Virus record (IMG/VR): IMGVR_UViG_3300046167_000307
Coordinates: 1-39,460 of that record
DNA length: 39,460 nt
Reading direction: 5' to 3' (one strand)
Source: a virus
Shown here: one piece after another, positions 1,971 through 10,988 of the stretch
Layout: each line of letters starts with the position of its first letter
How positions within the stretch are numbered: position 1 is the first letter of the stretch
Notes under the pieces: model-generated
Seen by the model: the letters and a program-made list of their open reading frames with translations, nothing else
Told to the model about the DNA's origin: nothing
The model's database searches: none
Program-made: the position numbers and the translations under genes

Positions 1971-2159
1971 CTGAGCGACATCATTTGGTATATTTTTTTA
2001 GGTGTACTATTCAACTGGTTTTGGGACTGGATGTCTGATGTAACTAAACAAGAAGACATGCGACTAACATGGTTTCAACGTTTTACTGCTATCTTTCTTT
2101 GGCCAGCATACTTGATTTCGTTCTTATATCATTTTATTAAAGCAATGAACAATGACTAA
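1971..2159 (+). CDS. Short membrane protein with unclear start
   Basis: The frame is open from a TAA at 1944-1946 to a TAA at 2157-2159, overlapping the next ATG (2152) by eight bases. It encodes two hydrophobic stretches: IIWYIFLGVLFNWFWDW, then AIFLWPAYLISFLYHF near the C terminus, separated by a charged linker. No ATG, GTG or TTG precedes the first segment. A CTG at 1971 gives 62 residues. The first ATG (2031) gives 42 residues and loses that segment. The rare start, or a lost base at the start, is unresolved. The composition and the overlap argue that this is a real small membrane protein. Confidence 0.4.
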   Translation: MSDIIWYIFLGVLFNWFWDWMSDVTKQEDMRLTWFQRFTAIFLWPAYLISFLYHFIKAMNND

Positions 2160-3075
2160 CTACGGATATTGTTGCATTAATATGCAACTCAGACAACAAA
2201 AACCATCAATTACTACAAATCGTTCTATGATTAAACGTACGTTCCAGGCTAAAGGCATGGACTACGCGTCAGAACTTATTGTACAGAACGTACGAGATCT
2301 ACGTGAGATTATCAAATGGAATGAAGCCAATGGTATCAAGCTTTATCGTATGTCTTCAGATATTATGCCGTGGATGTCAGAGTATAATATATCAGATCTT
2401 AAAGATTTTAGAATTATCAGAACTATTCTAGAAGACTGTGGCGATCTGGCAAGGGAGTACGGTCAGAGGATTACATTCCACCCTGGACCATTCGATGTCC
2501 TCGCATCACTAAATGAAAACGTTGTCACCAAATCTATTGCTGATCTCAACAAGCATGGTGAAATATTTGACCTTATGGGTCTACCGCGTACTCCCTATGC
2601 TGCGATCAATATTCATGTCAATACTACACAAGGTGGTAAAGAAGAAGCTATGCAGAGATTCGTAGATAACTTCCACTTACTTGACCCTTCTATTAAAAGC
2701 AGACTTGTAGTAGAAAATGACGACAAACAAAAGCAATATGCTGTAGAAGATCTTTATCAAGGTATCTATAGTAAGATTAACATTCCAATTACATTTGACT
2801 ATCATCACCATTGGTGTCATCCAGGTGAGTTGACTCAAGAGGAAGCACTTAAAATGGCTTCAACAACTTGGCCTAAGGACATCAAACAACTTTGCCATTA
2901 TTCTTCATGCAAGCAAATACATGAGGATTCATCCGTAATGGCTAGGGCTCACGCCGACTATATTTATGAACATATTAATACTTATGGCCTTAATCTGGAC
3001 ATTGAGTTAGAGGCAAAGGCAAAAGAATTAGCTGTTCAAAAATATGTGAAACAATTTGCATCACAATTAGTATAA
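2152..3075 (+). CDS. uvsE: UV damage endonuclease, UvdE/Uve1 family
   Basis: A 307-residue protein with the family hallmarks in order: GYCCIN at 5-10, YRMSSD at 65-70, the HPG turn (H110), VEND ending in the acidic pair around E188-D191, and DYHHH at 216-220. These belong to the metal-binding TIM barrel that nicks DNA 5' of UV photoproducts and starts alternative excision repair. The length is typical. The start overlaps the small membrane-protein gene. T4 itself uses the unrelated DenV glycosylase, so this is a different solution to UV repair, plausible for a phage of sunlit water. Function is inferred from strong family resemblance. Confidence 0.9.
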   Translation: MTNYGYCCINMQLRQQKPSITTNRSMIKRTFQAKGMDYASELIVQNVRDLREIIKWNEANGIKLYRMSSDIMPWMSEYNISDLKDFRIIRTILEDCGDLAREYGQRITFHPGPFDVLASLNENVVTKSIADLNKHGEIFDLMGLPRTPYAAINIHVNTTQGGKEEAMQRFVDNFHLLDPSIKSRLVVENDDKQKQYAVEDLYQGIYSKINIPITFDYHHHWCHPGELTQEEALKMASTTWPKDIKQLCHYSSCKQIHEDSSVMARAHADYIYEHINTYGLNLDIELEAKAKELAVQKYVKQFASQLV

Positions 3076-8942: not shown

Positions 8943-9695
8943 ATGGCAAAAAAAATACTATCATTCGAAGAATATCAAGTTCAGTTAAAGGCTGAGCAAG
9001 ATAACGTAGATACTACTGAAGAAGTAGAAAACGAAGAATGCCCTTGTGGAGAAGACGGGGATGGTAACTGTCTTCCATGTGAAGATGAAACTCCTTCTGA
9101 AATAGAAGACGAAGAAATAGACGACGAAGATGATGATTCTGATGACGATACTGATGATGTTGAAGACGGCGCTGATGAAGATGACGACGACGATGACGAC
9201 GATGACGACGATGATGACGAAGATGACGATGAAGAAGATGATGACGATGATGAAGAAGAAGATGAAGAGTCTGATGAAGAAGAGTCTGAAGAAGAAGTTG
9301 AAGCAGAAGATGAAGAAGAAGGAGAAGAAGCAGAAGTAGAAGAAGCTCCTGAGGAAGAAGGAGAAGAAGAAGCTCCTGAGGCAGAAGCAGAAGCTCCAGC
9401 TGAAGCTCCAGCTACAGTAGAAGAAATGCTGATCGAAGGCTATTCAAAAGTAAAAGAAGCTGCATGTGCTTATGAGAAAGACGAATACCAAGACCACACA
9501 TTAGAAATGTACATGAAAGAGAACGCTGCACTAGTAGCAACTCTTGCTGCAACAGCAATGGAAGAAGGTTATGGCGAAGTTAAAGAAACTGAATTAACTC
9601 AAGAAATGTATGAGGCTCACTGTAATGAGATGAAAGAGGCTTATGCTAAGAAAATGGATGAGTTAAAAGAAACTTACGGCGCTGGAAAAGAATAA
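8943..9695 (+). CDS. Very acidic prohead-core-like protein
   Basis: A 250-residue protein. The N terminus MAKKILSFEEYQVQL is basic then amphipathic. It is followed by a four-cysteine cluster (C33-x-C35, C43-x-x-C46) that could bind metal, and then about 100 residues of nearly pure Asp and Glu (roughly 50-150). The C-terminal ~95 residues are helical (VEEMLIEGYSKVKEAACAYE onward). Strongly acidic, helix-rich proteins are typical of phage prohead cores (for example T4 gp67 and gp22), and the neighbours carry capsid-targeting-like peptides. It has its own late promoter. An acidic DNA-mimic role is an alternative. There is no direct homology evidence. Confidence 0.5.
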   Translation: MAKKILSFEEYQVQLKAEQDNVDTTEEVENEECPCGEDGDGNCLPCEDETPSEIEDEEIDDEDDDSDDDTDDVEDGADEDDDDDDDDDDDDDEDDDEEDDDDDEEEDEESDEEESEEEVEAEDEEEGEEAEVEEAPEEEGEEEAPEAEAEAPAEAPATVEEMLIEGYSKVKEAACAYEKDEYQDHTLEMYMKENAALVATLAATAMEEGYGEVKETELTQEMYEAHCNEMKEAYAKKMDELKETYGAGKE

Positions 9696-9702
9696 TAGAA
9701 CT

Positions 9703-10329
9703 ATGAAATACATTAAGTCAATTAGCGAATTAAATGAGGCAAGACAAGCTCCTGCTAAGAAACTATTTAAGATGGTAGTTAAAGGTAGCACTTCTGAAAT
9801 TGAAGGTCAAAAGATCTCTAAGGAAATGGCTCAAGCTGCATTGGATTGGTTTGACAGATCTGTATACGCTAGAAAATATGCTAATCAAGTTCAAAAGGCT
9901 GGTATGGGCGCTGTTGCTCCACTAATCTTTGGTGAATATTGGGGTATTAAGAAAACTATTGGTAATAAACTAAAACCAGAATTTAAAGAGCTGCAACAAG
10001 TATATAAAAGAGAAATGGCTGAGTCAGTTTTAACTGAGTCAGATGCAACTCCTACAATGTTATTAGCTCAAGAGATTGAAGGTGGTGAATATCACATGGC
10101 TTTCTCAGACGGTGGTATTGGTGTAGACGCTAGATCGACTAAGAAGACTTGGGAAGATGGAGTACCAGTACTTAAATATATTGCAAGAGCACCTAAGAAA
10201 TCTGTAGAATTACCAAAGGGTAAATTTGAAGTAGTTATCGATGATAAATACGGATGGTACTACTGGGAGAACAAGGGTATCTGGTATGGAATGGAACAAG
10301 ATGGAGAAACACCTCCATTTGAGTATTAA
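9703..10329 (+). CDS. Internal/head protein with capsid-targeting-like N terminus
   Basis: A 208-residue protein starting seven bases after the acidic protein. The N terminus MKYIKSISELNE|ARQ ends in an L-x-E site like those cut by T4 gp21. A second site, ESVLTE (107-112), separates a basic helical half (10-105) from a beta-rich C-terminal half with many Trp and Tyr (YGWYYWENKGIWYGME). Both the N-terminal pattern and the ESV(L)xE motif are shared with the 694-residue protein at 5005, which suggests a common maturation route. The functions of the pieces are unknown. Confidence 0.5.
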   Translation: MKYIKSISELNEARQAPAKKLFKMVVKGSTSEIEGQKISKEMAQAALDWFDRSVYARKYANQVQKAGMGAVAPLIFGEYWGIKKTIGNKLKPEFKELQQVYKREMAESVLTESDATPTMLLAQEIEGGEYHMAFSDGGIGVDARSTKKTWEDGVPVLKYIARAPKKSVELPKGKFEVVIDDKYGWYYWENKGIWYGMEQDGETPPFEY

Positions 10330-10345
10330 AAAAAGAACCACTATT

Positions 10346-10411
10346 ATGAATTGCGAATGTCAAGTATGTAAATGTGGAACATCATGTAATTGCTCTTGTT
10401 GCGATTGCTAA
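10346..10411 (+). CDS. 21-residue cysteine-rich metallothionein-like peptide
   Basis: A very short frame encoding MNCECQVCKCGTSCNCSCCD plus a final Cys: nine cysteines in 21 residues, arranged as CxC, CxC, CxCxCC and CxC. This spacing is that of metal-thiolate clusters in metallothioneins. It starts 16 bases after the upstream stop, behind an A-rich leader, and ends just before a strong terminator, which is where a real last gene of an operon would sit. Such a cysteine-dense frame is unlikely by chance in 31-35% G+C-looking DNA. Expression is unproven. Confidence 0.5.
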   Translation: MNCECQVCKCGTSCNCSCCDC

Positions 10412-10438: not shown

Positions 10439-10479
10439 AAAGAGTCTATGTATAACAATAGTAACATAGACTCTTTTTT
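10439..10479 (+). terminator. Rho-independent terminator
   Basis: A perfect 13-bp stem, AAAGAGTCTATGT (10439-10451) pairing with ACATAGACTCTTT (10464-10476), with a 12-base A/T-rich loop and a T run to 10479. It ends the head-core cluster and lies only two bases before the ATG of the deaminase gene at 10482. Confidence 0.9.
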
Positions 10480-10481
10480 AT

Positions 10482-10988
10482 ATGCCAAGAATTCCGGTTG
10501 ATTTAATTTATATGCAGATGGCTTATCAGATAGCCAAGCTATCCTATGCTAAACGTAGACGCGTTGGTTGTATTATCGTGAAAGATACACAGGTAATATC
10601 AACTGGATATAACGGTACGCCACATGGCTTTGAAAACGACTGTGAAGAGATACAAGTCAGAGATATAGATAATAAAAATCATAAGAAAGTCTTAGAAGAA
10701 AAGGGCTATGATTGCGATGATGCCTGTTGTTCTAAAGAGGTAACTAAAAGAGAGGTCTTACATGCAGAGTCTAATGCCTTAGCAAAGGTAAGTAAATCTA
10801 CATTAAGTGCAGAAGGTGCAGATATGTATATCACTACATGTCCATGTTTTGATTGCGCAAAATTAATTATTCAATCAGGTATTAAAAGAGTATTCTACTC
10901 AGAGGATTATAGAGATATGTCTGGGATAGGACTATTAGAAAAAGCAGGTATTGAAGTAAAAGAAGTTATATGTTGGAACGCGGAGTAA
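10482..10988 (+). CDS. dCMP deaminase (ComEB / T4 Cd type)
   Basis: A 168-residue zinc deaminase that would convert dCMP to dUMP, feeding thymidylate synthesis. The zinc and catalytic signature is H94-A-E96 with P121-C122-F-D-C125. The N-terminal VGCIIVKDTQVISTGYNGTP strand-loop is characteristic. Extra cysteines near residue 78 (YDCDDACC) may bind a structural zinc, as in T4 dCMP deaminase. The ATG at 10482 directly follows a terminator hairpin, so an in-frame ATG at 10512 (M11) is an alternative start. The gene overlaps the helicase start by 19 bases. Confidence 0.88.
   Translation: MPRIPVDLIYMQMAYQIAKLSYAKRRRVGCIIVKDTQVISTGYNGTPHGFENDCEEIQVRDIDNKNHKKVLEEKGYDCDDACCSKEVTKREVLHAESNALAKVSKSTLSAEGADMYITTCPCFDCAKLIIQSGIKRVFYSEDYRDMSGIGLLEKAGIEVKEVICWNAE

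Follow-up and report, generated by a model that had tools for sequence, protein, structure and literature searches.

The micro-ORF at positions 10346-10411 of IMG/VR virus record IMGVR_UViG_3300046167_000307 is well supported as a real, conserved protein-coding gene. The product is likely a free-standing, one-domain metallothionein-like microprotein of marine-Bacteroidetes phages that would buffer copper or zinc. The stretch analyzed (positions 1 to 39,460 of the record; hereafter the window) has the ATG at 10346-10348 and the TAA at 10409-10411, which confirms the 21-residue, nine-cysteine ORF proposed in a first-pass annotation. The encoded peptide, MNCECQVCKCGTSCNCSCCDC, carries Cys at residues 3, 5, 8, 10, 14, 16, 18, 19, and 21. 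The host of the window virus is likely a marine Bacteroidetes, as suggested by a helicase that is closest to that of an uncultured phage and, among isolates, to those of Bacteroidetes phages (Tenacibaculum pT24 and PTm1, Chryseobacterium MA9V-2). The locus comprises the following features.

9703-10329, plus strand: 208-aa upstream gene without a PHROG or Pfam match, used to anchor 17 relatives
10327-10345, plus strand: stop codon of the upstream gene and A-rich leader, no Shine-Dalgarno (SD) site (window sequence; family start context)
10330-10411, plus strand: 82-nt presence/absence unit, missing in contigs L002-L005
10346-10411 (stop included), plus strand: micro-ORF, 21 aa, nine Cys, mini-metallothionein-like peptide (ORF reading and family)
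10352-10408, plus strand: family core CxCxxCxCxxxCxCxCCxC (single window match; shuffle control)
10439-10476, plus strand: intrinsic terminator, 13-bp stem and U run (hairpin -16.2 kcal/mol, z -4.7)
10482-10988, plus strand: dCMP deaminase, a zinc enzyme, first gene past the terminator (PF00383, E 5e-24; phrog_174)

The nine-Cys DNA pattern has a single match in the 39,460-base window, and 100 dinucleotide shuffles of it gave none, even with three mismatches allowed. IMG/VR was scanned for CxCxxCxCxxxCxCxCCxC and then with more specific patterns; poly-Cys repeats were removed, as were poly-Cys matches arising from TGT repeats in bacterial genomes. The scans yielded at least 201 virus loci, a few of which may be overlapping stretches of one contig, and at least 122 distinct cores with the nine-Cys pattern. 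Among the matches listed, members are usually 20-22 residues long and follow the pattern CxCxxCxC-xxx-CxCxCCxC-stop, with the ATG one to three codons ahead of the first Cys and the stop immediately behind the last. A single contig (L087) encodes a longer, 36-residue form with one extra CxCxxCxCxxx unit. All nine Cys and their spacing are constant while the non-Cys residues vary widely, and His and aromatic residues are found in only 4 and 1 of 246 cores, respectively. A tblastn search of isolate phages with the 21-mer, a short query that was probably filtered as low-complexity, gave no match, which therefore carries little weight, and the motif is absent from the whole records of pT24, PTm1, MA9V-2, and immuto (Bacteroidetes phages), LR756500, and C75C1. 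Separately, virion-region proteins that start MC(N/D/K/S)CGCNTCE are encoded by four contigs of one neighbor cluster (cluster 0; L073, L090, L114, and L404); their Cys-rich start resembles half of the peptide motif and is followed by a long body with LNES-like motifs.

Because the scan patterns already demand the Cys codons, an argument for coding from conserved Cys would by itself be circular, and other tests were used. On non-Cys codons, pN/pS was 0.43 (95% CI 0.33-0.59; independent nearest pairs); neutral simulations with the observed transition bias gave a mean of 0.72, and 0 of 300 were as low as 0.43. Cys codons exchange TGT and TGC freely (pS 0.28 vs 0.25 at other silent sites), so it is the protein and not the DNA that is conserved. 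A scan for the C-terminal half retrieved 29 contigs, every one of which has the N-terminal CxCxxC and an ATG. A survey anchored on a flavoprotein gene covered 64 phage loci whose upstream DNA was long enough; the peptide was intact in 11, decayed in none, and absent from 53. The start context is of the Bacteroidetes type: A is found at -3 in 86%, at -6 in 76%, and at -12 in 83% of the family, and an SD-like site lies upstream of the ATG in 1 of 153 members. Translation initiation in Flavobacterium has A-3 as a determinant and proceeds without SD (PMC6847099). The leader in the window has A at -3, -6, and -12 to -14 relative to the ATG. Thus, the wider family has both in-frame purifying selection and a start signal, as protein-coding genes do.

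Close relatives, defined as the 17 virus contigs that encode the upstream 208-aa gene, show how the site varies. In L001, whose upstream gene is 92% identical, all 21 peptide residues are retained with two synonymous changes; frame and Cys are kept, the pattern that the first-pass annotation had proposed to look for. The only indel between L001 and the window is one A in the A-run ahead of the ATG, outside the ORF. The ORF is therefore independent of the upstream frame, and a frameshift extension of the upstream gene was rejected on the same one-base difference in A-run length. L232, found through the motif, has an identical peptide in the same place. In L002-L005, the upstream TAA joins directly to GCAGGCACAC, which in the window comes right after the stop codon of the peptide. 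L006-L008 and L016 instead have a different 20-aa ORF (MKKAKQIFWEYWIKPWNPIY and variants) right behind the same upstream gene, L009-L013, L015, and L017 have neither micro-ORF, and L014 has unrelated sequence at the site. No further nine-Cys copy was found elsewhere in the records of the 17 relatives. In every state checked, the terminator hairpin precedes the dCMP deaminase gene whether or not the peptide is present, and both are retained in L002-L005 and L009, which lack the peptide. The peptide gene comes and goes as one complete unit at operon ends, and only a minority of related phages carry it. The alternative micro-ORF at this position, M(K/R)KxKQIFWEYWIxPW, is itself conserved in four phages (starts at L006:5624, L007:4386, L008:5618, and L016:2613).

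The interpretation in the first-pass annotation is supported as a whole: both outcomes that it had named as counting against it were examined, and the frame proved intact in a close relative and a translation-start signal present in the wider family. Its proposal of a natural last-gene position before a strong terminator also holds, given the 13-bp hairpin and U run downstream of the ORF. The micro-ORF starts 16 nt past the stop of the 208-aa gene, whose description as head-core-like was not borne out by any PHROG or Pfam match; in other phages, the nine-Cys peptide sits between head genes and terminase. At loci with recognizable genes, the median distances place the start of a major head protein gene ~2.9 kb upstream of the peptide, the start of the head maturation protease stretch ~4.7 kb upstream, and the terminase large subunit ~3.5 kb downstream. 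Phages with recognizable head genes thus have the peptide in the head and packaging region, and many phages of the family have head and packaging genes of the T4 type. A terminator-like hairpin occurs within 150 nt downstream in 45 of 154 members, compared with 2.3 expected. Head-region placement and the excess of hairpins together indicate that a late, operon-end position is a common plan, the window included.

The peptide had further been suggested as a zinc donor for many zinc proteins nearby. In the window, the basis for this is one zinc dCMP deaminase just past the terminator, and nothing specific supports the suggestion, given that the peptide is the same in form beside quite different genes among phages and hosts. 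No metal-homeostasis genes were found among its phage or host neighbors, which, like its presence in only a minority of related phages, counts against a role in metal buffering. Elsewhere in the window lie genes for an extremely acidic protein that carries, close to the N-terminus, a CPCG...GNCLPC motif (8943-9695; CPCG...GNCLEC in the L001 version), a phage-encoded UvdE UV endonuclease (2152-3075; PF03851, E 6e-61), and a PvuII-like restriction endonuclease (379-900; PF09225, E 5e-8).

An RNA element was observed next to the peptide gene in many phages. A conserved leader, present at L457:2054-2181, L150:3148-3272, L140:2609-2730, and ~120 further loci, lies ~90-100 nt (~240 nt in some) ahead of a gene for an FAD-dependent oxidoreductase and is often right behind the peptide gene. 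It contains a hairpin with a covarying 5-bp stem and the invariant loop ATTCATAGC; all five pairs change on both sides, and 99.5% are paired across 39 sequences. The hairpin is followed by an invariant CTGTG, a terminator hairpin, and a TATATT box. A putative pseudoknot would join CTGTG to CATAG in the loop, a pairing without covariation. With no match at threshold in Rfam, the leader looks like a riboswitch-like or RNA-binding element new to that database.

Beyond viruses, chromosomal copies among the scanned bacteria were confined to marine Bacteroidota (marine Flavobacteriales). In the genus to which MED-G11 belongs, with genome sizes of ~0.8-1.3 Mb (about 1.1 Mb), at least 18 of 25 genomes have the motif, a lower bound because the assemblies are incomplete drafts. 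A neighboring gene was likewise not found in the seven genomes that lack the motif, which may reflect gene loss or missing sequence. Two genomes of another marine Bacteroidota group also carry the motif, and only one true copy turned up in 395 genomes sampled broadly across the order. Nine chromosomal copies in the genus share one neighborhood, in the order glnA, a Na/Ca-exchanger-like gene, the peptide, and then, a few genes off, pirin and MsrA (names read from sequence). No phage genes adjoin the peptide in this genus, and the next gene is on the opposite strand in several chromosomal copies. A 119-aa gene lies directly upstream of the peptide in 7 of the 9 syntenic copies. This protein (MNIFL..NGLYKEY; L334 and other chromosomal loci) is encoded in 17 of the 25 genomes, in 12 of them immediately ahead of the peptide and in others at a different site, and it has no PHROGs match and, over its first 80 residues, no Pfam match. 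Viruses and chromosomes share no identical core, and any exchange is therefore not recent; in the core middle, viruses prefer CGxSC and chromosomes C[TN]KSC.

The peptide has the hallmarks of metallothioneins (MTs) in being small and Cys-rich (21 aa, nine Cys), with repeated CxC, one CC, and few or no aromatics and His; its composition and nine-Cys count fit the first-pass label of metallothionein-like. Nine thiolates in CxC/CC spacing, scarce His and aromatics, and variable spacers read as the signature of a metal-thiolate cluster. No model in Pfam, NCBIfam, or PHROGs matches the peptide. A control, a known 26-aa fungal MT, is likewise missed by Pfam, so the missing library match says little. 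A control mammalian-type MT matches the animal metallothionein profile PF00131 at 1e-22, and the nine-Cys peptide does not match this profile. The best match among solved structures, wheat Ec-1 metallothionein (2kak), has a local CxCGxxCxC resemblance at a nonsignificant E of 5.8. Neurospora-type fungal copper MTs, at about 25 aa and 7 Cys, are comparably short, one-domain proteins with a CNCGxxCxC-like stretch, whereas the peptide has nine Cys instead of seven (43% Cys), a different spacing, and a phage or bacterial origin. The animal MT beta-domain also has nine Cys in CxC/CxxC spacing and no aromatics. In mammalian MTs this domain is Zn3Cys9, with three zinc ions bound by nine Cys (PMC10243857), and by analogy the peptide would likely hold three divalent metals per nine thiolates. 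However, the peptide is free-standing at 21 aa, whereas the animal beta-domain is half of a ~60-aa protein; it also has a CxCC-x-C end and no detectable homology to animal MTs. SmtA/BmtA are, like this family with its putative metal role, bacterial Cys-rich metal proteins. SmtA-type MTs combine a zinc-finger fold with His ligands and a hydrophobic part (PMC10612145), whereas the 20-22-aa peptides are shorter and nearly without His or aromatics, which places them outside the SmtA family.

Other explanations of the locus were weighed against metal buffering. A chance ORF might be suspected in a reading frame of 21 codons spotted by eye; the family, the selection, the start signal, and the zero count in shuffles led us to reject it, and we assign it practically no probability. 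The order of Cys-codon ORF, terminator, and dCMP deaminase gene in the window looks like an attenuator with a leader peptide. Yet L002-L005 and L009 have terminator and deaminase without the peptide, the next genes differ elsewhere and lie on the opposite strand in several chromosomal copies, and non-Cys residues are under selection. With no fixed link among peptide, terminator, and following gene, this highly improbable reading was also rejected.

Two alternatives accept a real microprotein. A thiol redox buffer only would agree with the very high Cys content and the nearby MsrA and pirin in the bacterial locus; we find it improbable, since such a role would not need the strict CxC/CC spacing seen in every member found, with no decayed intermediate. 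Somewhat less improbable, but still unlikely, is a peptide whose thiols act on proteins or redox state instead of storing metal, whether by stripping zinc, by blocking a host Fe-S or zinc enzyme, or as a virion-packaged product. Host-takeover genes are often present or absent at a spot able to hold another micro-ORF, as here, and in many phages the peptide gene closes a late operon of head genes. The near-core bacterial gene without adjoining phage genes argues instead for housekeeping metal handling, and fixed Cys and spacing amid variable non-Cys residues suit a metal cluster above a protein interface. The lack of a head-targeting N-terminus also counts against this reading.

Under the metal-buffering reading, the nine thiolates would fold round metal as a single cluster in the reduced cytosol, which would hold either three ions of the Zn/Cd type, on the model of Zn3Cys9 domains, or several Cu(I). 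Made late, as the last gene of a late operon, the peptide may buffer or sequester Cu/Zn (or Cd) released or mis-handled during host dismantling, which could protect replication and assembly enzymes. The chromosomal copies would perform the same buffering in the host lineage.

A search of open-access literature found no phage metallothionein, and the family is not mentioned in a phage small-protein review or in the main text of a global small-protein catalogue. It may already be present, unnamed, in the catalogue's own data or in subscription literature. On balance, we think these sequences probably represent unnamed 20-22-aa nine-Cys mini-metallothioneins of marine-Bacteroidetes phages that also belong to the near-core genes of a streamlined genus of flavobacteria; virus and host lineages would have exchanged or shared this metal-buffering gene, presumably missed because gene finders skip such short ORFs. 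If metal-binding, these peptides would rank with the smallest natural metallothioneins and those densest in Cys, and they would be the first phage metallothionein findable in the open-access literature. Phages of ocean Bacteroidetes would then control Cu/Zn while they infect, and a gene that is near-core in streamlined marine bacteria would have escaped notice until now.
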